The position numbers and the translations under genes are program-made. From contig WHVD01000035.1 of the NCBI GenBank assembly GCA_015178975.1, forward strand, positions 186,001-250,000: a stretch of DNA of 64,000 nucleotides, written 5' to 3'. Shown piece by piece: positions 5,474-44,928 of this stretch (positions are counted from its first letter, which is position 1; each line of letters begins with the position of its first letter). The notes beneath the pieces are model-generated. The model was not told the origin of the DNA and made no database searches. It was given only the letters and a program-made list of their open reading frames with translations. Source of the stretch: Hysterangium stoloniferum. Its lineage: Eukaryota; Basidiomycota; Agaricomycetes; Hysterangiales; Hysterangiaceae.

Positions 5474-7123
5474 ATGGCAGCAGGCACGACCAAGATTGCA
5501 CACCTTATCGAAAGTCTCTCTCAACTTGAGGAGGACCGTCAATTCGCCTCAGAGAGGCCTAAGCCACCTGTTGAACCAGAGATTGCGGATGATTTCGAAC
5601 CGCCTGGTCCTAAGATGGCTGCGGTGGCTGATAATGAACAATTTACCTCAGAGGATCTTCACAAGCTAGTCAACTTGGGACCAGATATACCAACGGAGGT
5701 CCTGCCACATCTCAGATCAGTTTTGACTGAGAACGTTAAGGCTTTCGGAGTCGACGGACGGTTAGGGCAAGTGGAATGTAGAGTCCCTGTCCCCTTGAAA
5801 GAGGGCGCCCAGCCCATATCCATGCCTATGTTCCCTTCGTCCCCTGCCAATAGGAGAGTTATAGACGAGCAAATGGATACCTGGTTTGAACAGGGTGTCA
5901 TTGAGCCATCTAAAAGCCCCTGGGGGGCGCCAGCCTTTGTAGTATATCGCAATGGTAAACCGTGGGTGGTCATCGACTATCGGAAACTTAATCATCTCAC
6001 TGTTCCAGATGAATTCCCTTTACCATGTCAATTGGAGATCATGCAGGCGCTGTCGGGATCAAATGTTCTTTCTTCTTTCGACACGCTAGCTGGGTTTACT
6101 CAATTAGAAATGTTGGAGGACGATAAGCCCAAAACAGCCTTTAGATCTCATAGAGGGCTGTGGCAATTTAAAAGGATGCTGTTCGGGCTCAGAAACAGCC
6201 CCTCCACATTTCAGCACGTCATGCAAACAGTTTTAGCACCCTACTTGTGGATTTTTTGTCTAGTCTACATCGATGACATAGTCATATTCTCTAAGAACTG
6301 GGATGATCATTTGCTTCACCTGAATCAGGTGCTTGGCGCTATCGCTTTGGCCGGTATCACTCTCTCTCCCAAGAAATGTTTTATCGGATATAATTCGATC
6401 TTGTTGTTGGGTCATAAAGTATCCAGGTTGGGTTTTTCGACCCATCAAGAGAAAGTTCGCGCTATATTAGAACTGGCCCCACCCACTAAGGTCTCTGAAC
6501 TACAACGGTTCCTTGGAATGGTCCTTTACTTTTTGGCGTATATACCATTCTATTCATGGATGGTGTCCCCTTTATTCTCGCTCCTAAAAAAGGGAACACC
6601 CTGGATGTGGACTGCTGAACATGTCTGAGCTTATGAGGATGTTAAAACCGCACTAGGATCAGCACCAGTGCTGGGACATCCAGTTAGTGGGATGCCCTAT
6701 CGATTGTATACGGACACTTCAGATTTTGCCTTAGGTTGTTGTCTCCAACAAGTCCAGAAGATGGCTTTAGGAGACTTGATGGACACTAAAATCTATGCCC
6801 AAGCCAAGTTAGCTTTTGACCGTGCGCAGGATGTGCCATCCTTTGTTCATCGGTACAAAACCAAACAGCCCGAGATTGAGTGGTCAGATTCATGGGGACC
6901 CACTTTTGAGGTGACCGAAGTTACCGTTGAACAAGTCATTGCATATTGGAGTCGCACGCTGAAAAGCACTGAACGTAACTATTCTGCCACTGAATGGGAA
7001 GTGTTAGCAGCAAAGGAGGGACTAGTCCACTTCCAACCCTTCATTGAAGGTGAACACGTTCTACTCATTACGGACCATGCAGCTCTGCAATGGGCTAGAT
7101 TGTACGAGAACACTAATCGTTGA
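5474..7123 (+). pseudogene. Reverse transcriptase-RNase H part of the 205-18397 chromovirus (fossil)
   Basis: RT motifs are clear: VIDYRKLNHLT, FDTLAGFTQLE, the LFGLRNSPSTFQ region and the catalytic LVYIDDIVIFS near 6262-6294. RNase H follows with YTDTSDFALGCCLQQ and the YWSRTLKSTERNYSATEWE motif (about 6700-7000). The nested 7342-14525 element separates this from the integrase part. Confidence 0.88.
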
Positions 7124-7341
7124 CTAGCTGCATGGGGGGCAATATACGCTGCATTTCCAGGTCTCAAAATTTTACATCGAGCAGGAAGAGTTCACAGTAA
7201 CATGGACCCATTGTCCAGACTCCCTCGGGTACCAGCCTTCGTGAGCCCTATTAGAGATTTAGAGATGATATACAAGCTATCACCTCGACCTCTATGGACA
7301 AAAGCACTGAGGAAAAACTATGGAAGGACGAACCTGCTAAG

Positions 7342-7468
7342 TGTTAAGAACTAGAAACTGACTAATGTCGGTGGCCGACGGGGACCGATCGGAAGGACTT
7401 GGCTTCAGCTTATGTGCTGCGCCTTCGGGGACCGTCGGTGTGTGAAGGGTTGCAACACAGTCGTAACA
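7342..7468 (-). repeat. 3' LTR (short form) of the nested Tf1-like element
   Basis: In plus orientation it begins TGTTAAGAACTAG and ends CAGTCGTAACA, matching both ends of the 721-base LTR at 13805-14525. This copy is only 127 bases long. It holds the shared leader block (7395-7423). Confidence 0.85.
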
Positions 7469-7643
7469 GTATCCCCTCATTTGGCCAAAATCCCAAGGAG
7501 GCCGAAAATCTAGATCGTGTATGTAAAACAACGTCGGTTACGGGTTGTGTGTCAGAACGTCATGTGACCGGTAAAATTTTCGCATATAAAAAAAATGGGA
7601 GGTTACAAGGCGCTTGACTCTTCATCCTTTCCTCCCAACCACA

Positions 7644-8650
7644 ATGCCGTTGAACACTGGGACGAAGACCATCCCTGTCAGGCTGACCGTAACTCCTGTG
7701 TCGGGTCCGAGCGGGATGCCGAATGCACAAGAATGTCGGCGCCAACTAGAGGCGAGGAAAAAGGCATGCGAGGAGGAGGAATGAAAGGAGATGGAGGAGC
7801 TGAAAGCGATTGAGGTGGTCGAGGTGGAGGAGAAGAGACGGGTGGAGGTGGAAGCTACGTGCAAGCGTCGGGAGGCCAAGCTTGCGAGGAAAAAACAGCA
7901 GGAGGCCGGTCGGGCCGAGAGGAGGAGGCGAGAAAGAAACGAGAAGGGAAGGTAAGTTAGGAGAAGTATCACACTGTGAATCTTTACTAATGCTCTCTTC
8001 TCAGCGGAAGGCAGTGTCACCGTCGGTATCCAATGAAGAGGACGAGGAATACGAGGATGAGGCTGCAGGGCCTTCGAGCCCGAAGGTTTTTATTTATATA
8101 TATATTTCTTTTTGCTGTTACTGACTTTTAGTGACAGAGACAAAAAGGGGCCCCCAAGGCGGGGCCCGAAAATGATCCTAGGTGTAACTGCTGCACTGCT
8201 CGGAACCGAGCTTGCCATCCTCGAGCAAACAGTCGGGGCCGCACATGTCAAGAGTGTGCAGGTCAAAAGCTTGGTTGTACCTACCTGGGGGCCGACATGG
8301 GTGCGATCTACAGGGAGCGCCAGACGGACGCGATGGAGGAGCAAAACCGCCTTATGTGGTTGTATTTCGTGGAGACCACTTGGTGGCGAACCGAGTCTCT
8401 GCGACAGCAGGGACTCCTTCACGAGCAAATGTGACTGCTGGGGGTGGCCATTGGAGAACAGACGGCCATGTTACAGTGGGTCGGAGGGCAGCTCGAGCAG
8501 TACCTCGAGCCGCCTAGTTCGGACGAGGTTGAGCCGGTTAGGGCCTTGGAGGAAACTGGAGGGAAGGGAATATCGGTTGCCATCGGTGAAGCGCGAGCTT
8601 CGGAGACCGAGGAGGAAGGGGAAGTAGTAGAGGGTACTTTAGATAGTTAA
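7644..8650 (+). pseudogene. Antisense accessory ORF inside the Tf1-like element (fossil)
   Basis: This plus-strand coding region lies between the element's 3' LTR and the end of its minus-strand pol. The frames show a short N-terminal part, a strongly charged Glu/Arg/Lys coiled coil (about 7720-7950), an acidic Ser/Glu linker, and a Cys cluster of the form CX2CX6C...CX2CX6C (about 8180-8280), like a small zinc-binding domain. A Trp-rich helical segment (8290-8440) and an acidic tail ending at 8650 follow. A TATA-like box (CATATAAAAAAA, about 7582-7593) stands roughly 50 bases before the ATG at 7644. Open stretches change frame, which may mean introns (GTAAGT at about 7950) or decay; they are not joined here. 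The function is unknown. Confidence 0.6.
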
Positions 8651-8782
8651 AATAATAATTGATTCAATCTTTTTTTGAAATCGTGAATTGAAAATTGAAA
8701 GCATCAGATAGTGACTTGGTAATTTAAGTTCGACTTGGTGTTTGAGGAATCGGAGGCCGTCGGTTACCGTGTCGTGTGAAGA

Positions 8783-9865
8783 CTAAAGAGAGTCTAAAGG
8801 ACCGGGTTTGTTCAGATACGTTTGATGGAAAACTGAAACGATTTCTGATGTATTGCCAAGTTCGGTGGCTAGGATCCAGGAAGTTTCTTCATCTGTACCT
8901 TCATAGCCAGTCCATTTGACCAAATAAAGTAACTTGCACGATCGCCTGTGATTGTTGATCTTGGAGTCTAGAATTTCCGATATTTCAAGTTCGGGTTCCC
9001 CATCAATGATCACAGGTGGGGGTGGTGGTTGTATGGGATCTGGTATATTGTTAGCAACACAAGGTTCCAACATGGATACATGAAATACCGGGTGCACTGC
9101 ACGCATGTTGTCGGGAAGCCGAAGCGTCCATGACAGCATACTGGCTTGTGCTATAACTTCAAAAGGACCTAAATATTTTTCAGAGAGCTTCTTAGAAGGT
9201 CTAGTAGTTCGGAAAAACTCGGCTTTAATGAATACTCGGTCTCCGATCTTGAAATCAGGAGGCGGAAGTCGGTTTTTATTCGCAGACCATTGGTATCGTT
9301 CTTGGGCCATTGCGATAGTTTTACGAAGTTCTTGATGTAGCTCATCAAGGTTGGTAATGAAGTCTTGAGCACAAGCGGATGCGAGATCACGTTCCGGGTG
9401 GATTGTGATGTTGGGGTTGTAGCCTTTATTTGCGAAGAAAGGCGAAATGCCAGTAGTGGCATTTGGTGCGTTGTTGTATGTGAATTCGGCTAGCGGTAGT
9501 AGTGATTTCCAATTGTCTTGTTGATAGTTGCAATAAACACGGATGTATTGTTCCAAGGTTTGGCTCATGCGTTCGGTTTGTCCATCGCCTTCCGGGTGAT
9601 AGCCCGAAGTGAAATGTAGCTTCATGTCTAGTGCTTTTCCGAGTGCCCTAAAGAAGTGAGAGACGAACTCGGATCTGCGATTGGATGTGACATGCGATGG
9701 AACGCCATGCTTGGAAAATACATGGGTGACGAATAATTCAGCTAACTGTACAGATGTTATTGTGTCATATGTTGGAATGAAAATACTTTGCTTTGAGAGC
9801 CGATCCACAACAACTAGGATTGCTGTGTGACCTTTGGATGCCGGTAGGTGCTCGATAAAATCCAT
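8783..9865 (-). pseudogene. Integrase core and chromodomain of the Tf1-like element (fossil part)
   Basis: The 360-codon frame starts at MDFIEHLPASKGH, continues with VVVDRLSKQSIFIP (DDE core), HPEGDGQTERMSQTLEQY, a GPFEV-type GPY module (GPFEVIAQASMLSWTLRL), and a C-terminal chromodomain (LYLVKWTGYEGTDEETSW). The chromodomain is the mark of the chromovirus/Tf1 group and is thought to guide insertion into marked chromatin. Confidence 0.85.
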
Positions 9866-10093
9866 AGAAATCGAGTTCCAAGGTTTTTCCGGTATCGGTA
9901 ATTGTTTGAGTAGGCCATATGGTTTGTGTCGCTGTGATTTAGAGTGTAGACACGTAGTACAAGATTTACAATAGTGCTTAACAAAATCTCGGATGCCGGG
10001 CCATGTATATTCTCTTCTAATGAGTGAGAGGGTCTTATTGAGGCCGAAGTGTCCCGAGATTGGGTGGTCATGCTTATGTTGTAGGATTCGCAG

Positions 10094-12615
10094 TCAAAGG
10101 GTGTCGAAGTCCGGTACATAAATGTGATTGTCAAGTCTAATGAAACCTTGTGAGTCTAATGACCATCGGGGTTGATCGGGGTCGGACGGGTTATCGAGGT
10201 GTGCTTTGGTGACTGGGTCTAATGGAATTGCCGATAGTATATCTTGATGTAACTTTTCGGTATCCATAAGGATAACACTTCGCAAGACTGGATGAATGAG
10301 GTAAGTGGCTCGGATAGACGCGGACAGTTGTTCCGATGAAAACATAGGCTTGAAATTATGCGGGTTAACTGTGGCATAGTCGCTACTCCCCTCTTTAGGA
10401 TAGACATCCCATCGTCTAGTCATAGCGTCGGGTTTTCCACCAAGGCGGCCGGGATGGAAGCGAATTACCATGTTGAAAGCAGAGAGGTATTCGGACCATT
10501 GAGCCTGTCGACGGGTGAGCAGTTTTGTGGTTGAAAAGTAACTAAATTTTTGTGGTCTGTAATAACATCTACTGTGTGGGTCGAGCCTTCCAAATAATGT
10601 CGCCATGTCTTGAAAGCTTCAAATATTGCGAGTAGTTCCTTATCGTGAACATCATAGTTGAGTTCGGGTGCCGAAAATGTGCGAGATAGAAAGGCTACTG
10701 GGTGTACTTCACCATCGGTGTCCAGAATGGACAATATCGCAGCAAGCGCATAGTCCGAGGTGTCGGTTTCCATGATGAGTTGAACGTCGGGCTTCCAGTG
10801 CGACAGAATAGGGGCAGATGTAAACGCACTTTTCAATTCCTGGAATGCTGATCGGCATTCTTCGGAGAAATTCCACGGGACGTCTTTACGAGTAAGACGA
10901 GTGAGCGGAACGGTAATTTTTGAGTAGTTGTGAATGAAACGACGATAAAAATTGGCGAAGCCTAAAAAGGATTGAATATCCTTAACCTTTCGGGGTTCCG
11001 GCCAATCTTGAATGACTTGAACTTTAGAGTCGTCCATGCGGAGACCATCAGGTCCCATCATAAACCCTAAATATTCAACTGTGTCGACATCAAAAGAACA
11101 TTTTTTACCATTCGCAAAAAGACCATGTTTTTGGAGTCTTCGGAGAACTTCACGAATGTGTTCATCATGAAGTGTAGGATCTTCAGAGAATATGAGGATG
11201 TCGTCTAAGTACATAATGACAAAGATATCAAGGAGGTCGGAAAAGATGTCGTTGATAAAACGTTGAAAGACCGACGGAGCGTTGGTGAGGCCGAAAGGCA
11301 TTACTAACCATTCAAAAGAGCCATAGCGAGTGCAAAAAGCCGTTTTCCATTCATCGCCTTCGGCGATCTGAACCAAATGATAGGCATGCTTGAGATCTAT
11401 CTTTGTATAGATTCGGGCCTTCCGAGGGGCATCAAGTAAATCGGAGATTAGTGGTAATGGGTACTTGTCTTTTCTAGTGATTGCATTTAGTCCTTGAAAG
11501 TCAATGCAAAGTCGAAGGGAACCGTCTTTTTTCCGAACGAATAGGACGGGGGCTCCATAAGGAGACTTTGAGGGTCGGATAAAACCTATAGCCAAATGTT
11601 CGTCCAAGAAATCTTGGATAGCCAATAATTCGGACTGCGAGAGAGGATAAACTGGGCCTAGGGGCGGATGTGAACCATCTTCAATATCAACTTTCAAATC
11701 ATAAGGCCTGTGAGGGGCGAGTCGATCTGCTTTTTGTTTACTGAATACATCTGCAAATTCATGGTATTTTTTGGGACCACCTTCCAAATCTGCAATTGGT
11801 TCAGCCACCGGGGATGCAAAGCGACCGGTGACTTCGTCAATTTTAAGATTGACTGTGAATGCTCGGGAGCCGTCCAACTTGATGGCTCTCATAAAGGCTG
11901 CGGCATTTATTAGAGAGACGGGCGGCGGAGAGCTCGGATTTGCCACTAGGGCTGGAGGTGCTGTAGAGGCCATATTTGCCAAAACAGGCGAAAACGGACC
12001 AGTCGTAACGGGTGCCGACGGGGTTCGGAAATGGATACTGCCCAATACCCAATCAATCAATGGATTGTAGCGGGTGAGCCAGTTATGTCCTAGAACCACG
12101 GAGCAACTCGGGTCCAACTGTGTTACAAAAAACGTAACTGTCTGAAAAGTTCCACATGGGAACCGAAGTCGGAGCTCGCAGGCTTGCGAGATTACGGAGT
12201 TTGAGGTACCATCAAAGAGTCGGAGCGGAATCGGGTCTATTGCATAGGTTTTTAACTGATTTTTTCTGGAAAAACTTGTATCTATAAAACAATGAGTTGA
12301 ACCTGAATCTATGAGGGCTCGAAAAGTGAGACTCCCGAGAGGTTCCGAAGTAAGATTTATGAACAAAGAATTAGGATCATACAAGGCGGATGCGTTAAGA
12401 TGACAATTTTCCGGTGTGCGAGGAGATTCAACGCAACTCTCCAACCGCACGGAATCCAGAGAGTTGCTTAATCTTTTTTCGACTTGGCAGCCGGCTTGGC
12501 CAGTTGTGAGGTCGTGGCCGTATTGGCCGATCGGGCTTTTGTGGCTTTTGGGCATGCAGCGACTCGGTGTCCGGGATCTGCACACAACAAACAAAGGTTG
12601 TTGTCCATTCAGCAT
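10094..12615 (-). pseudogene. Protease, RT, RNase H and integrase zinc region of the Tf1-like element (fossil part)
   Basis: The long open frame (716 codons, 10465-12615) carries the protease motif RALIDSGSTHCFID, RT motifs (LCIDFQGLNAITRKDKYPLP, MPFGLTNAPSVFQ, catalytic IMYLDDILIFSED) and RNase H (METDTSDYALAAIL, NYDVHDKELLAI). The next part (10094-10606) continues through the RNase H/integrase linker ([21 protein letters not shown]). Confidence 0.85.
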
Positions 12616-13007
12616 TGCTTTTCCTGTGGTAGGAGCTTGCCATCGGAGCCGAGTTTGCCAGTTAAGTCGGGTTTGTCTTTGTCTTGAGACTTATTCGACT
12701 GTTTTCCCTTGCCTTTTTTGTCGTTAGTCCCTTTGTTTTCGGACTTCTTATCGGAGGTCGAGTTGCCACTGTTGTTGGTGTTTTGATTACCAGACTTGTT
12801 GGTGTTCTTATTTTCCGATGATTTTTTGTCCGAGGGGTTTTCGCGACTAATTTCCGAATGTCGTTCCCAGTATCGGGCGTCTGTGTTTTGGGCTTTCAGA
12901 CGCATGAGAGGGAGGGTTTTCGGCTTGCCGGTTTCTCCTTTGGAAACTTCATCCTTGAGGTGAGATGGAAGGCCAGAGTAAAACTGGTAACGGAAGGCCG
13001 AATCGCC

Positions 13008-13766
13008 CTAGTCGCAACGCACGGCGAGGTTGTTGAACTGGACGATGTAATCGGTGATGCGCTGAGTGTCTTTCATTTTGAGATTAGAAAGCGCGGTTTC
13101 GGCATCGCCGGTTTGGTTGTAGGGACCGAAGTTGGTTTCGAGTTCCTCGACAAAGGCATCCCAATCGTGAAGCCAATCGGGGTCTTCAGAGGTGAGGCCA
13201 GAGAATGCGGGTTCAAACCAGGCTGCTGCGGAATCCTTAAGGTACGAGAGTGCGAAGTTTACCTTTCGGTCATCCGTTATGAATGCAGCCGGTCGGTCCC
13301 AAAAGTTGAATCGACATTGCATAAGGAATGTCGGCAATTTCTTCGGGTTTGAGCCAGTGAATGGCTCGGGTTTGTTGACTCGGGTTTGCCCAGGTTCCTT
13401 TTCCTTGATATTGCTTTTAAGGAATTCGTTAAGGGATCCTAGAGTACCTGAAAACAATTCCCATGTCTCTTCAGGGTCGAGAGCCGGTTTCTTTTTTGTG
13501 GACTTCTTGGAGCCACTAGCCTGAGGTTGGTCACCATCCTCGGGTTCGTGTTCCGAAACTGGTTGATTGTTAATCTCCTCAGTTGCTTCAGGATCAGTTG
13601 CTTCAGTTACTTCTTCAGCATCGCCGGTAATCTCCACAAAGCGAGATTCTTCGGAGGTTTCTGGTAACGGGGTTCTCTGAGTAGCTCGAGCTGTATACAG
13701 GAAAGGAGACTTGAGAGTGGAAGATTCTGCTTCGCCGCTAGGCTTGGCATTTTTCCTCGGAGGCAT
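13008..13766 (-). pseudogene. gag of the Tf1-like element (fossil part)
   Basis: The frame starts at MPPRKNAKPSGEA at 13766, only 39 bases inside the 5' LTR. An acidic Thr/Glu-rich N-terminal part precedes a capsid-like section (INKPEPFTGSNPKKLPTFL-type, then FALSYLKDSAAAWFEP), typical of Gypsy Gag. The knuckle CLLCADPGHRVAAC follows further downstream near 12600. The same start (MPPRRKAHIQES) is seen after the LTR at 21941-23526, so the two elements are relatives. Confidence 0.8.
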
Positions 13767-13791
13767 GATTAAATGGAAAATGTGAGTGTGA

Positions 13792-13802
13792 AATCAGAAT
13801 AT
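13792..13802 (-). promoter_or_regulatory. Self-priming primer-binding site (Tf1 type)
   Basis: In the element's direction the 11 bases ATATTCTGATT stand two bases inside the 5' LTR. They are the exact complement of AATCAGAATAT inside the LTR (14098-14108), which lies about 30 bases after a TATA-like box, where transcription should start. In Tf1 the first 11 bases of the RNA fold back on the primer site to prime reverse transcription; the same pairing is inferred here. No tRNA-type site beginning with TGG is seen. Confidence 0.72.
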
Positions 13803-13804
13803 AC

Positions 13805-14525
13805 TGTTAAGAACTAGAAACTGACTAATGTCGGTGGCCGACGGGGACCGATCGGAAGGACTTGGCTTCAGCTTATGTGCTGCGCCCTCGCAATTTATCC
13901 ATTGGTTGTCCTTAAATTTCAGACGGGCAAAGACTAAATCCTAAGAAGAACCTTTCGGCGAGATACCGATCGGAACCGAGGGACAAGTCAAGTGTCGGGC
14001 CAAGGGGTTGGGGCCGAGAGTGGGCGAGCACACGTGAAGGCGGATGGGGGATTCTTAGTATGAGACTGCTGCAGACGTATGAGGGTATTCTGAGTCGATA
14101 TTCTGATTGCCTAGTAACTACAACTACAGCGGGTTCATATACAAGTAACAGGCATCTAGAAAATACTAATGGGGAGAAGGGCGGAAAACGGTATTAGCAT
14201 TAAGCTTGACTAGGAACGGGAGGTTTATGATTAGTTCGGAGGCCGATGATAACCGAGAATGGAATTACGATAAAAGGAAATAGTTCGAGGACTACAAATA
14301 TAGATAGACATATGTGAAACATAGAGTGGAACGGATCAACATGATGAAAGGGATGTATCAAAGCATAACCAGACAGAAAGGCGTAGTCAGGTTTGATTGA
14401 CCGGAGAGCATACGTCAGCGTCGGGGGACCGACGGCTTCCGAGGTCTCGTCTTATTGACGACATATAACTACGATATACCATCGGGGACCATCGGTGTGT
14501 GAAGGGTTGCGACACAGTCGTAACA
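13805..14525 (-). repeat. 5' LTR of the nested Tf1-like element
   Basis: The LTR is 721 bases. In the element's direction it begins TGTTACGACTGTGTCG and ends TTCTTAACA. A TATA-like sequence (plus strand 14135-14142) lies about 30 bases before AATCAGAATAT (plus strand 14098-14108), the likely transcript start. The shared leader block is at 13858-13892. Confidence 0.92.
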
Positions 14526-14530
14526 CTAAG

Positions 14531-15118
14531 AAGGCGGTCTTCTCGATCATAAACGATTCCATGGAACCTTTTGGAGTAACTCAGAAGGTCCGACAGTCGG
14601 AATGGGATTTTCATAACGCAGTGAGGGATGATCAGGAGGACGAGTCCGACTTTGCACTGCGTCATCCTCAGCTGCTAATCAGTATTGAGGAGGGATATAT
14701 AAAGAAATTTCTAGAGGGATACTCGAAGGACCCAGTCTTCAGAAACCTCTACGCTCTAGATACCCCTTCACCCAATGTGGTTGTTACTCCTTCTCACTAC
14801 TTTGTGGGAGCAAACAGACTCCTGTACTTTCATGACTCGGACTGGAAAAGTCGAGTCTGCATGCCCAAAACCATGACTAACTCTATTTTAAGGTTGGTAC
14901 ATGATAATCCTTTTGAGGGAGCACACGCCGGAGGTCAGTGGTTGTTCAACCTAATGAAATACCGGTTCTTTTGGCCAAAAATGCTGCAAGATTGCGTGTC
15001 GTACGTGCGTACCTGCGACATCTGCCAAAAGACCAAAATTGATCGCACCGCTCGTCAAGGAGCCCTCAGACCTGCCAATGTACCTTTTAGGCCTTTTGAA
15101 GTAGTTTCTATGGATTCG
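14531..15118 (+). pseudogene. Integrase zinc-binding part of the 205-18397 chromovirus (fossil)
   Basis: The chromovirus resumes after the nested element's target duplication. The zinc-binding signature HDNPFEGAHAGGQWLF... with YFFWPKM-type sequence and CDICQKTK (H-H...C-C) is at about 14900-15040. It ends in the first bases of the catalytic core (FRPFEVVSMDS). Confidence 0.78.
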
Positions 15119-15132
15119 AGGTCCTTGAGAAA

Positions 15133-15456
15133 TTGAACCCTCAAGTATTTAGGCTTAAGATTCCCCCGGAGTATCCGATGCATCCAGTCATTAATCGGGA
15201 TCATCTGCGGAAATATCAACCCTCTCCTCCCAACCTAGGTCCAAGACCCCAACTTGAGAACCTAAGAGAGTTGAAATCAGATCATGAAGAATATGAAGTC
15301 AAAGCTATTGTTGGACATAGAAAACAGCAAAATCGTCTGCTATTTAGGGTGCGCTGGAAAGGTTATGGACCCGAAGAGGATTCGTGGTTAAGCAGCACTA
15401 ACCTCAGAAATGCTCCAGCACTTCTGAGGGCATACAAGACGCTGTTCAAAATCTAA
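15133..15456 (+). pseudogene. C-terminal chromodomain part of the 205-18397 chromovirus (fossil)
   Basis: It shows HPVINRDHLRKYQPSP (end of the integrase GPY region), then a chromodomain: EYEVKAIVGHRKQQNRLLFR followed by VRWKGYGPEEDSWL. This places the element among chromoviruses. Confidence 0.78.
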
Positions 15457-18397: not shown

Positions 18398-18692
18398 CCA
18401 CATTTCCTGCACCTCCCCATCTTCACTTCCCCACCTTTCTCCTGACACCCATTTTTTCTCAACCATATCCACCAACAGATCATTCAGCTCATCCTTTTCC
18501 TTATCGGTGTACCTTTCAGAAACTGCAATTATGCCAATGCTGACCATTACCTTTCTAAGAACTCATTTTGTTTCCAGAAGTTCCAATTCAACATCCAGAA
18601 CTCTCTTTCTTGGATGTCATTATGGCACTCTAAAGTCTCCTGAACCTTCATCAACTCCAGTCCAATGAATACCATCACATTAATGGTATCTC

Positions 18693-19440
18693 TGTTACAA
18701 CTATGTCACAACCCAAATATAACCAACAACACTATCACCTCAAGTTATCATCATGTCTTCATATTGGCCACCATCGGTAAATCCGACACTGATGTACACC
18801 CTCATGGTGATCAACCCCTGCTACAGCCCCTGTCAAATTATACTCATACTATCTGGTTGTACTCTGATATGTCCCTTTATCCTTTGATGGTCCATTTATT
18901 CTATGTCTCACCTATACCCGTATATACCATGGACTGTTTCCTTTTTTGTAGTTATCACCCTTGGTTATTCATGGCCTCTGACTTTATCATAACCTTCCTG
19001 TTCTTGGTCAAGTTTATTTGTCATTGGGGCTTTTCTGCTCTTCCCTTAGTTAGTATTTTCTAGACACCCATGACTCATATATAAACCCACTGTAATGTAA
19101 CTACTAAGTAATCAGAATATTGACTCAGAACACCCCTAAATATCTCTCATAGTCTCACTCTAAGTATCCACTCTCCACCTCTGCTTGTGCTCACTCACAC
19201 TCAGTTTCTGACCCTCTGACTTTCTGACCCTCTGACTCTCTGACCCAACCCTCAACTTATCCTTCAGCTTCCAACTGGTGACTTACCATGAGGATTGCAT
19301 GACAGGACTAGTTCTCACCTGCCTGAAATTTAAGGACACCCAATGGTAACTTGCAAGGGGGCAGCATAAAAGCTGAAGCCAAGTCCTTCCATTTGGCCTC
19401 CATTGGTCTTCCAACCTTAGTCACCTTTCTGTTCTTAACA
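18693..19440 (+). repeat. Solo LTR of a Tf1-like Gypsy family
   Basis: It runs TGTTACAACTATGTC...TTCTTAACA, 748 bases, with target duplication atctc (18688-18692 and 19441-19445). It contains TATA (ATATATAAACCC), then AATCAGAATAT (19110-19120) and the shared leader block (19351-19386). It is CpG-poor and looks old. It sits inside the antisense accessory ORF of the outer element. Confidence 0.88.
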
Positions 19441-19498
19441 ATCTCTGAGGAGTTCAATGCTGGTATTGTCGACAATGCTTGGCACTGCAGTTTCCATA

Positions 19499-19757
19499 TG
19501 TTAGGGCAACACTAACAAGGCTACCAAAACACAAAAAGAAACAAGAGAGAGAGGGCAAGATAAGGAGTAAGAGAATAGAAGTTCTAATGACTTAAGAATG
19601 TCACACTTGTATTTAGTGGAAATCCTAAGGGTTTGAAACTGGGGTCTAACTATGTACATCTTAGGGTATTTATACTAAAGAGAAAATTAAATAAAGTTAT
19701 TATTGAAGGTTCAAACCTTAGAAGAAAATTAAATAAAGTTAAGTTTTACATTTGACA
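19499..19757 (-). repeat. Short LTR-like repeat, TGTTAGGG family (copy 1)
   Basis: This 259-base repeat begins TGTTAGGGCAACAC and ends TTTGACA, with a possible 4-base target duplication cata (19495-19498 and 19758-19761). A TATA-like TATAAATA on the minus strand suggests the LTR reads leftward. Related copies lie at 38687-38930 (opposite strand) and from 48715. Confidence 0.6.
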
Positions 19758-20444
19758 CATATATGACATGTGATTGTCATTGTGTGGCTGCAAATGGTTA
19801 CTTACCTTTGGACTCAAAGGCCCAGTGTCCTCCTCCTCATCCACTTCATCAGTTTTCCACTGTTGTTTTCCATTATCAGAGACACCTGGAACATTACTGG
19901 TTCACTCACTTTTCTATCCCATTTCTCTTTTAGTCTTTGCTCTTCTGCCTTGGCCTCCTGCCATCTCTCCTCTGCCTCATCCTGCAACCTCTGATCTTCC
20001 ACTATTTTCTGCAACCATTCTTTCCTCTGCTCCTCCTTTTTTTTCTCTGCCTCAATCCACTCCAACTCCTATTTTTCCACCTCTTCTGCCTCTCTCAACT
20101 CCTGCATCAACTCTTTTGCCTCCTCCTCTTGTTGTTGTCTTACCTCCATCCTCTGTCATTTTTGTTGAAGTTCTTCTACTTTCGACATTTCGGCAATTTC
20201 AGCAATTTTAGCTTCTGAATTTTCCAGAGTGGTGGTAAACAAAGGACAATGAATACACATGCAAGTCATGGTTAAAGAAAAGAAAAATTGCTATTTGAAT
20301 ATTTGGAAGTTTTTATACTCAGATCAGCAGCTGAAACTCTCCACTTCCAACCATGCATTTTTTCATAACACATAATGGATAACTGACAGTTCAATGCTCA
20401 GTACTTAATCACCTCTATGGGGCTTCAGCCTAACAGGGAGGTAC

Positions 20445-21370: not shown

Positions 21371-21940
21371 CAGTGACTCAAAAAATCCTTCCAATGTTTG
21401 GTACTTCAGATGTATATCCTTGATAACTCAGAGGATAAAAATGCAGAAATATCAAAACTATTTCTGAGCATACCCAAAAATGGATATTACATAATAATAT
21501 TTTAGAGACTGATTCTACACATGTTTAGCTATATACTGTATTTGTTTGAGATTTTTGCTATTTTATCTCCCCTCTGCCAATATGCAAATGTCAAACATTG
21601 AAAAGGTTTTGAGAGTCACTGTAGATTGTGGAAATACAATTTCATTACATAAGCTCCAAATATGGAAATACTACAAATATTTATATATAGGAGACTCATT
21701 GGAAGGGTTTGCTGGCTGCCTTGATGACTATAAATGCTTATAGTCATGTGACCTTGTTGATTGTTCACCTCCAACTGGGTCCTATCAACAAAATCACATG
21801 ATCTCATGTCATGTCACCACATTGTGCTGGAGTATAAATACATGGCCTTTAGCAACTAGCAATGTCCCAATTCCCAAAATGTCCACTTTGTCTCTTGCCA
21901 GCCAGAATCATATTCTCTCACTGCTTTTGATGTGGCCAAA
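21371..21940 (+). mobile_element. Tc1/mariner element, left part (truncated)
   Basis: TA (21369-21370) is followed by a terminal inverted repeat CAGTGACTCAAAAAATCC that continues for about 50 bases. The same repeat, inverted, is found at about 25500-25554, also followed by TA. After a 5' leader with TATA (AGTATAAATAC), the N-terminal transposase region begins near 21850 (CPLCLLPAR / LSLASQNHILSLL in shifting frames). It ends abruptly at 21940 where an LTR has inserted. No DDE catalytic part is found in the window. Confidence 0.72.
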
Positions 21941-23526
21941 TGTTACAACTGGAATTCCTGCCAGACTCTGGGCACTAACATATATGTACTTGCACCCTAT
22001 ACACACCAATTATCAGTTTACCGGAAATCCCGCCAGACTCTGTATGTCAGACCTGTCCACACTCAACCTTCATTACTTCATGTATCAGTCACTGAAATAC
22101 CTGCCAGACTCTGTCCCTGTCTATCTCTGACCCTGTCCCATGCATCAGTCACTGGACCCCTCTTGGAAAACCCGTCAGCCCTCTAACTGAGCCCCATTCC
22201 TGTTATAGTCAAATGACCTGTCACAATTTGGACTCCACTCCCGCCTGAGTTATCAGGGATGTAAACCTGAAGTACCAAACATTGGAAGGGTCATTGAGGC
22301 ACTTCCAACCATATTGAGACTATTCTGCACAGTTTGAGTACAGATGGACTGGTTGGTGACATTCCTAAGAGCTTTGGCCACATCAAAAGCAGTGTCAGCC
22401 TTCCCAGAGCTGATGAGGTGCTGTGCATAGTGAATGTTGGTAGGGGAAAGCTTTGAGGGATGACCACCAATGGACTTTGAGAGATGAGAACGAAGCTTAG
22501 AGACTGTGCAAATGCTATGGCCAGTAGAAGCTGCAATATGGCTAGCTGAATGGCCAACATCAAGCAATGAGAGGATATGATTCTGGCTGGCAAGAGATAA
22601 AGTGCATATTTTGGGAATTGGGGCATTGCTGGTTGCTAAAAGCCATATATTTATACTCCAGTACAACATGGTCATGTGACATCATGTGACATCATGTGAT
22701 TTTGTTGATAGGACCCAACTGGAAATAAAAAATCAATAAAGTCACATGACTATAAGCACTTATGTATAGTCATCAAACCTGCCAGCAAAAAAACCCTTCT
22801 CATGAATCTCTTGTATATAGAGATTTGTAGTATTTCCATATTTGGAGATTATGTAATGGTATTGTACTTCCACAATCTAGATATGATAGAGCATATTCAC
22901 AAATATTTTTGATATTTTTGCATTTTTATTCTTTGAGTTACATGGAATATACATCTGAAGTATAAAACATGAGAAGGGTTTTTGAGGCACTGTATGACCT
23001 GTCACAATTTGGACTCCACTCCATTCTGTCCCATTCCTAACACCAATTTTGGTGTTTATTTATCTCATTTTATGTTTGCTATTTTAGTTTTCATTATTAC
23101 TAAATTTGGTATGTTATTCATTCCACAGTCTATATAGTCTGGCAGATGTTGTACATACAATCCAGTCAGAAAATCAGCTTAGGTTCTCCCCAGTAATCTT
23201 AGTATATTTTCCGCTCTAAATTCCTCTTTGAAACACACTGCTTTTACTCATTGGAGCCCACGGGCTCTGACCCATCTATCACTTGACCTCTGACCCATCT
23301 ATCACTTGACCTGACCCATCTATCACTCAATCCCTGACTTATCTATCTCGACTCCCTGACCTCTTGACCCATGAACCCCACCCAGACTCCCTGGGATTCC
23401 CGTCCACCTGTTTGAAATTGGACAACACGATTTTGCAAGGGTGCAGCCTATAAGCTGAAGCCAAGTCCTACTGGATTTCCTGTGGGTTTCTCCAGAAACC
23501 CTCCATATACATATGCACCCTTAACA
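21941..23526 (+). repeat. 5' LTR of a Tf1-like Gypsy (family B), split by a Tc1 fragment
   Basis: It runs TGTTACAACTGGAATTCC...CCCTTAACA and contains the inserted Tc1 piece 22243-22992. It is similar to the solo LTR 49671-50533. The likely transcript start AGTCAGAAAAT is at 23164-23174 and the leader block at 23433-23468. Immediately after the LTR comes a primer site ATTTTCTGACT (23529-23539), its exact complement, then a gag start MPPRRKAHIQES (about 23562-23597). The rest of the element is absent; a Ngaro-like sequence begins at 23661. Confidence 0.75.
22243..22992 (-). mobile_element. Tc1/mariner fragment with transposase N-terminus
   Basis: A minus-strand frame (22253-22675) encodes the helix-turn-helix region of a Tc1-type transposase: LASQNHILSLLDVGHSASHI, then TVSKLRSHLSKSIGGHPSK and FDVAKALRNVTNQ. 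The right end is a terminal repeat reaching TA at 22993-22994. On the left the coding sequence runs after about 100 residues into terminal-repeat sequence in the same orientation, so the DDE part is missing and the copy cannot be autonomous. It lies in the LTR 21941-23526 between two native copies of a short repeat (GACCTGTCACAATTTGG). Confidence 0.75.
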
Positions 23527-43900: not shown

Positions 43901-44928
43901 TGTTAAGAGCAGAAACTGACGGATGTCGGCAGACTGACGGGGACCGAACGGAAGGACTTGGCTTCAGCTTATGTGCTGTGCCCTCGCAAGTCACCGTCAG
44001 GTGTCCTTAAATTTCGGGCAGGCGAAAACTAGTCCTGTCAAGTAAACCTCTCGGTAAACTACCGATCGGAAACCAAAGGATAAGTTGAGGGTTGGGTTGA
44101 GGGGTCGGAGACCAAGAGTCGGAGGCTGAGAGAGTCAGGGACTGAGAGTCGGAGATTGAGAGTCGGGGACTGAGAGTCGGAGACTGAGAGTCGGAGACTG
44201 AGAGTCGGAGACTGAGAGTCGGAGACTGAGAGTCGGAGACTGAGAGTCGGGGACTGAGAGTCGGGGACTGAGAGTCGGAGACTGAGAGTTGGAGACTGAG
44301 AGTTGGAGACTGAGAGAGTCGGAGACTGAGAGTCGGAGATTAGAGGTTGAAGTCGTAAATGTAGGTTGAATCATAAATCGGATGGAGTCGGAATGTGGTG
44401 TTTGTGAATAGATAATGGAGTCGGAAATTAGAGGGGTATATAAGTCGATCTAAGTCGATATTCTAAGTCGATATTCTGATTGTCTAGTAGTTACATTACA
44501 GCGGGTCTTATATACGAGTTATCGGCGTCTAGAAACTACTAACTAAGGGAAGAGCGGAAAACGGCATTGACAAATAAGCTTGACTAGGAACCGGAAGGTT
44601 ACGATAAGATCGGAAGCCGAGATTTAGCCGAGAGCGGGATTACGAGAAAAGGGAATAGTCCACGGACTACAGGTATATATGGGCATATGTGAAACATAGA
44701 GTAAAACGGATCATCATAATGAAAGGGGAAGTATCAAAGCATAACCAGATGGTAGAGTATATTTGACAGGGGCGTAAACGAGGTTTGATCACCGTGAAGG
44801 TATACGTCAGTGTCGGTGTTCCGAAGGTTGCCGAAATGATGACTTGATCAATAACTTCGAACATTGATAGACTGTAGTATTCTTGGAGACCATCGGGTTG
44901 CGACATGGGTTATGACACGGTCGTAACA
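43901..44928 (-). repeat. Solo LTR of a Tf1-like family inside the second chromovirus
   Basis: On the plus strand it begins TGTTAAGAGCAGAAACTG and ends CACGGTCGTAACA, 1028 bases, with target duplication gacgg (43896-43900 and 44929-44933). It is related to the LTR 13805-14525. In its own direction: TATA, then AATCAGAATAT (plus strand 44471-44481) and the leader block (plus strand 43954-43988). It is longer than its relatives because of a minisatellite at 44104-44345. Confidence 0.92.
44104..44345. repeat. Minisatellite inside the solo LTR
   Basis: About sixteen units of roughly 14 bases (GAGAGTCGGAGACT and variants) lie in tandem, with G/A and C/T variants. The related LTRs 18693-19440 and 21941-23526 have only a few similar units at the matching place. 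Confidence 0.9.

Follow-up and report, generated by a model that had tools for sequence, protein, structure and literature searches.

Does a reading frame that runs against gag-pol, between the end of pol and the 3′ LTR of a Gypsy retrotransposon, encode a protein of its own, and if so, what might that protein do for the element? The question is raised by positions 7644–8650 of a 64-kb stretch of the Hysterangium stoloniferum genome (the whole stretch of 64,000 nucleotides that was analysed is called the window below), in which an earlier note, made from the sequence of the window, had proposed an antisense accessory ORF with its own promoter.

Structure of the Antisense Gene and Its Host Element

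The segment 7644–8650 (plus strand) represents a degenerate copy of a gene with three exons, placed antisense between pol and the 3′ LTR. Its host occupies 7342–14525 on the minus strand, between 5-bp target duplications (CTAAG), and its minus-strand gag-pol has Pfam matches to gag, protease, RT, RNase H, integrase, a Tf2-1-type SH3 domain and a chromodomain. With gag, RT, RNase H, integrase and chromodomain all present, it is a chromodomain Gypsy element (chromovirus, Tf2-1-like). Its features are as follows.

7337–7341: target duplication CTAAG, ahead of the 3′ LTR
7342–7468, minus strand: 3′ LTR, internally deleted (98.8% over 86 nt and 93.6% over 47 nt against the two ends of the right LTR)
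7469–7643, plus strand: region from LTR to ATG, with the complement of the polypurine tract and then the putative promoter (TATAA at 7585)
7644–7951, plus strand: exon 1, charged and coil-like, with a frameshift and an in-frame stop in the window copy
7952–8004, plus strand: intron 1, GTAAG...CAG (GT and AG at aligned sites in 27 of 27 copies)
8005–8085, plus strand: exon 2, acidic (codon-position variation 0.027/0.046/0.150)
8086–8137, plus strand: intron 2 (GT and AG at aligned sites in 27 of 27 copies)
8138–8650, plus strand: exon 3, with Cys cluster, helix, acidic tail and stop; one in-frame stop in the window copy
8183–8278, plus strand: CX2CX6CX10CX2CX6C cluster
8783–12690, minus strand: pol frames (protease, RT, RNase H, integrase, chromodomain), convergent with the antisense gene
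13008–13793, minus strand: gag (Pfam Retrotrans_gag, Ty3_capsid)
13805–14525, minus strand: 5′ LTR, followed by the target duplication CTAAG

About 590 bp missing from the 3′ LTR are still present in the 5′ LTR, and the deletion is therefore later than the insertion. The frames flanking the element on the plus strand, 6629–7123 and 14459–15456, resemble pol pieces of another Gypsy element (RNase H-like and integrase/chromodomain-like, respectively, when the translations are read by eye), which suggests that the element is nested. Elsewhere in the window, stretches similar to the LTR are found at 43901–44122 (78%) and 44459–44749 (81%), and long imperfect inverted repeats, with arms 83–91% complementary, at 21381–22983.

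The exon structure was derived from an alignment of 30 genomic copies of the 3′ part of the gene with their flanks, drawn from at least 41 matches (best 40 of 232 candidates scored). Because exon 1 is not alignable in L005, L022, and L025, these three copies were left out of the exon counts, leaving 27 window-family copies, and all four intron borders carry GT/AG in every one of these. A plain ATG-to-stop reading of the window copy runs out of phase and was rejected, the copies revealing two introns and the frameshift. Owing to its lesions in exons 1 and 3, the window copy is a pseudogene and is not one of the 7 copies out of 27 in which all three exons are open. What had been announced as an accessory ORF is thus real as an antisense coding region, while it is divided by two introns and is broken in the very copy from which it was read.

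Selection on the Frame

In the 27 window-family copies, variation at codon positions 1, 2, and 3 is 0.050, 0.067, and 0.126 in exon 1, 0.027, 0.046, and 0.150 in exon 2, and 0.049, 0.049, and 0.127 in exon 3; such a contrast is absent from the introns and the upstream region. Over these and the more diverged copies, the third position is about 1.6 to 5.6 times more variable than the other two. Among more diverged copies, which were sorted into groups A–C and group D, median dN/dS of exon 3 is 0.173 (A–C, 142 pairs) and 0.226 (D, 135 pairs), with no counted pair reaching 1, and that of exon 1 is 0.168 and 0.198, with values below 1 in 96/96 and 117/117 pairs, respectively. For pol, the value in the same A–C loci is 0.137.

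The exon-3 copies had been picked as stop-free, and their open frame is therefore no evidence in itself. Control frames of the same DNA bear stops, and four of the five have a median dN/dS of about 0.9–1.4. Frame −1 shows a dN/dS of 0.29, yet its copies contain a median of 3 to 4.5 stops, and the low ratio arises because this frame and the coding frame share their third positions. Coding of exon 3 in another frame is rejected in view of these stops, the ratios and the third-position overlap.

The codon statistics of the copies indicate that the antisense gene is a genuine protein-coding gene under purifying selection. They also refute a chance open frame, whose probability is practically negligible, even though the window copy taken alone is broken and has a GC/GA-rich composition of the kind that favors chance frames. 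The earlier note had argued for a family trait and had named beforehand several things that would speak against one, among them a frame not conserved among copies and equal rates at the codon positions; in the copies the frame is kept and the codon positions vary unequally.

A different idea is that the antisense transcript itself is the useful product, pairing with the sense RNA or feeding small-RNA silencing, with the frame being secondary. The gene converges on pol, so read-through would yield antisense pol RNA, and antisense noncoding transcripts are known in other LTR elements according to an excerpt of PMC7264820. An RNA-only role of this kind is nevertheless very improbable: dN/dS values of 0.17–0.23 in two groups, together with the kept splice sites and the kept Cys spacing described below, point to selection at the protein level, and the other frames are ridden with stops, four of five evolving at a dN/dS of about 0.9–1.4.

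Copies in the Genome and Their Tie to Pol

Exon 3 is found at no fewer than 355 distinct places of the genome, at least 205 belonging to groups A–C and at least 150 to group D. The exon-3 protein search for A–C gave at least 151 matches (best 150 of 648 candidates scored), and that for group D is represented by the best 150 of 975 candidates, of which 110 are without stops by hand count. In decayed copies from these whole-genome searches the stops are mostly TGA, a pattern that C-to-T change at the CpG of CGA codons would produce.

The gene is closely tied to pol. Among 150 pol ends (best 150 of 3226 candidates), 127 have exon 3 on the opposite strand within 2.5 kb. Eight of the 23 misses were read: seven have exon 1 and/or a truncated exon 3, and the eighth turned out to be the first group D copy, through which this second and larger group was found; its pol is less similar, with 78% identity over 172 aa. 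The antisense gene of this copy is far diverged, at 31% identity in exon 1 and about 41–45% in the Cys part of exon 3. Within group D, among the matches listed, exon 3 stands beside 88 of 119 pol matches and exon 1 near 25 of the other 31, neither exon being listed for the remaining six. Likewise, 11 of 12 diverged exon-3 copies have exon 1 upstream and the pol end downstream on the opposite strand; the twelfth, L070, has neither in its stretch. Almost every pol copy looked at in the two diverged groups thus has the antisense gene. It lies antisense between pol and the 3′ LTR (the aORF-3R arrangement), occurs in most copies of the family and shows the marks of protein-level selection.

One of the guesses of the earlier note was a captured host Zn-cluster protein; the present role would then follow from the host function. 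The introns and a promoter of its own would look like those of a captured gene. Such an origin is improbable, since no host homologue appeared among the matches listed (78 of the at least 205 A–C exon-3 places are without a listed pol neighbor, the pol ends being the best 150), and since the gene is old, its two groups sharing little outside the Cys part.

A diverged second copy is present in the outer element of the window (18403–20270).

19934–20260, minus strand: exon 1 of the outer element's antisense gene, family D-like, with TATA upstream (50% identity to family D exon 1 over 107 aa, E 2.6e-20)
18401–18693, minus strand: C-terminal part of exon 3 of the same gene (52% and 57% identity, E 8.8e-25)

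The Cys part of this gene was looked for and not found; the gap within the gene contains an LTR-like stretch at 19440–18849 on the minus strand (68% to the element's LTR over 608 nt). Of the same plan that had been claimed for both elements, the outer copy accordingly bears out the promoter, the charged stretch and the tail, and lacks the Cys cluster.

Putative Promoter

An exon-1 homologue is found in 60 of 67 loci examined, both elements of the window included. In all 60, which have the start region of exon 1, TATA[A/T] stands 55–60 nt before the start, and the start codon is ATG in 58; the 60 loci are related by descent and do not represent 60 independent events. The distance is kept at 57 in groups A–C and 56 in group D, despite the wide divergence of the proteins. 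In the window copy, TATAA at 7585 lies 59 bases upstream of the start at 7644, and the TATA-like box reported ahead of the ATG is hence confirmed as a conserved feature. A TATA box by itself is no proof of a promoter; given the fixed spacing, a TATA promoter of the gene's own, adjoining the LTR, is most likely.

Protein Product and Cys Cluster

The product consists, in this order, of a charged coil-like part (exon 1), an acidic part (exon 2), and the Cys cluster, helix and acidic tail of exon 3. The Zn2Cys6 consensus has the spacing CX2CX6CX5-12CX2CX6-8C, and Gal4-type factors are arranged in the order of cluster, helix, and acidic tail. Exactly CX2CX6CX10CX2CX6C is kept in 17/18 A–C and 15/17 D copies (32 of 35 diverged copies), a spacing that agrees with the Zn2Cys6 (PF00172) consensus. 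The cluster starting at 8183 is the sole match to this consensus in the window when stop-free frames of 20 aa or more are considered, and none occurred in 30 mononucleotide shuffles. In one profile comparison between A–C and D, the Cys part alone is aligned (50 columns, probability 94%, E 1e-7).

Sub-threshold matches to Pfam Zn_clus occur in 4/18 A–C members (best E 0.0022, 18.5 bits against a cut-off of 21), the best match being two half-matches with a shifted register, and in 4/17 D members (best E 2.2). Because the score stays below the Pfam cut-off, the protein is not filed as Zn2Cys6. PF04195 (TRP28) gave no match at E ≤ 10 among the 35 exon-3 proteins (18 A–C and 17 D). AlphaFold predicts a confident long helix at 54–123 for A–C (pLDDT 91–98), that is, in one of the groups; the Cys region has middling pLDDT in A–C (about 57–65) and low pLDDT in D (38–46), where the model as a whole is poor (mean 44.8). 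Foldseek found no PDB match at E ≤ 10 for the A–C model and returned no chain for the poor D model. The earlier combination of coiled coil, Cys cluster, and acidic tail is retained for the cluster, in 32 of 35 copies, and for the tail; the long helix is predicted in one group, A–C.

A Divergent Island and Probable Exchange of the Coding Cassette

The gene lies in a stretch where groups A and B differ far more than in the rest of the element. In 80-nt steps, A versus B distances are 0.07–0.17 in the distal LTR and 0.05–0.15 in pol, and mostly 0.27–0.49 between about −340 and +1180 relative to the start codon. This island is not uniform, as the A–A distance is also high in the 80-nt step at −260 (0.344) and even A and B stay close at the LTR/polypurine tract junction (0.15 at −180). 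Over 50 pairs of A versus BC, pol has a median dS of 0.50 and the antisense gene one of 1.60, which is near saturation. In a tree of the cassette, A is split from the rest with 100% bootstrap on a branch of 0.48, while the pol tree mixes the groups; a distal-LTR tree was set aside, since L065 and L071 lack that stretch and were placed on long, meaningless branches.

A clear mosaic is found in one of 27 A copies (L030/L048), which has A-type exons amid B-like U3, intergenic region and pol. Its exons are at 0.15–0.17 to A and 0.33–0.35 to B, while its U3, intergenic region, and pol are at 0.12, 0.07, and 0.07 to B and 0.39, 0.43, and 0.11 to A. The U3 of the other 26 A copies is A-like or at least non-B, that of the window copy being poorly comparable (0.43 and 0.54) owing to its LTR deletion. 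Strict co-inheritance of U3 and the antisense gene is contradicted by the single A copy with a B-like U3. Unequal rates alone fail to account for this copy, and the simplest reading is that the coding cassette has been exchanged by recombination, for example by template switching.

Possible Function

Our preferred reading, to which we give a probability of roughly 0.55, is that this is a genuine antisense accessory gene whose product would act as a Gal4-like regulator of the element's own promoters in trans, and which would move as a cassette between element lineages. The product would be translated and nuclear, would bind zinc via the CX2CX6CX10CX2CX6C cluster and dimerize through the helix after it, and would recognize specific DNA sequences in a Gal4-like manner in the LTR U3 and/or the antisense promoter; its acidic parts would serve as effectors. 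As such a regulator acts in trans, an element whose own copy of the gene is broken could still spread. One element with an open pol frame of 1302 aa has exon 1 and no exon-3 match in the stretch read, from which an intact antisense gene may be dispensable in cis. The order of cluster, helix, and acidic tail, and the Cys spacing kept between otherwise far diverged groups, speak for the regulator. Among the guesses of the earlier note, a regulator fits best; the element has a gag of its own, with Pfam gag and capsid matches, which makes a Gag-like role unlikely.

More tentatively, the gene may be a dedicated Gal4-like zinc-cluster trans regulator that serves as an exchangeable specificity cassette, diverging far faster than LTR and pol and swapped by recombination. 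The A-type gene beside a B-type U3 in the mosaic copy counts against a strict pairing of protein and U3.

Cys clusters serve in RNA or protein binding too. The main rival of the regulator is a replication-cycle factor that would bind nucleic acid or the integrase complex, in RNA packaging, nuclear entry, or integration targeting. Such roles are often filled by small zinc-binding proteins that form coils and are both basic and acidic, a retroposition factor could be made in trans, and nuclear roles have been suggested for antisense genes in general in an excerpt of PMC7264820. We regard this factor as rather unlikely, for a promoter apart from the LTR and the cluster, helix, and acidic-tail order suit a regulator better.

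Known Antisense Genes and Implications

Zhao et al. reportedly described brtn in 2011 as an antisense gene of Boty-like elements. Excerpts of two papers likewise present brtn as an additional antisense gene of these elements in Botrytis cinerea (PMC8365987, PMC7264820), and the latter treats antisense accessory genes at the pol/3′ LTR position as established in plants and in Boty of Botrytis. The statement in the earlier note that antisense ORFs occur in some plant and fungal LTR elements is thus borne out by Grande, Retand, and brtn. Brtn is, as here, an antisense gene of a fungal Gypsy element, the likeness being one of description. For Grande, a promoter of its own and a nuclear product are reported, and Grande and Retand resemble the present gene in place, orientation, and presence in most copies (PMC7264820, in excerpt). 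The antisense proteins of Retand carry TRP28 (PF04195) and are suggested regulators in passages of PMC11963269; here, in a fungus, a Cys6 cluster and introns are found instead, with no PF04195 match in exon 3.

With Gal4-type Zn2Cys6 factors, the exon-3 product shares Cys spacing within the consensus, a helix after the cluster and an acidic tail; it differs in a sub-cut-off Zn_clus score, no fold match and a cluster that sits in the middle of the protein, behind the charged N-terminal stretch. In HTLV-1, transcription from the 3′ LTR yields the bZIP protein HBZ. Its gene, an antisense gene on the 3′ LTR side with a nuclear regulator as product according to an excerpt of PMC11963269, is similar in position, and no relationship to the gene described here is claimed. 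A possible earlier sighting of the latter may be the “additional ORF of unknown function” in Gypsy elements, orientation unstated, in a figure legend of PMC2864245. Within an incomplete coverage of the literature, no description of a Cys-cluster antisense gene or of cassette exchange was found. Antisense accessory genes as such are already known; the domain set with the Cys cluster and the exchange appear to be new.

What antisense genes do in LTR retrotransposons is treated in reviews as an open question. With hundreds of natural copies in one genome, a recognizable domain order, strong selection, a fixed TATA spacing and a natural mosaic, function becomes directly testable here, and it could be addressed by binding and reporter assays without an active element. 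In such genomes, many “hypothetical Zn-cluster proteins” may be encoded by retrotransposons, and the elements may carry their own regulator.
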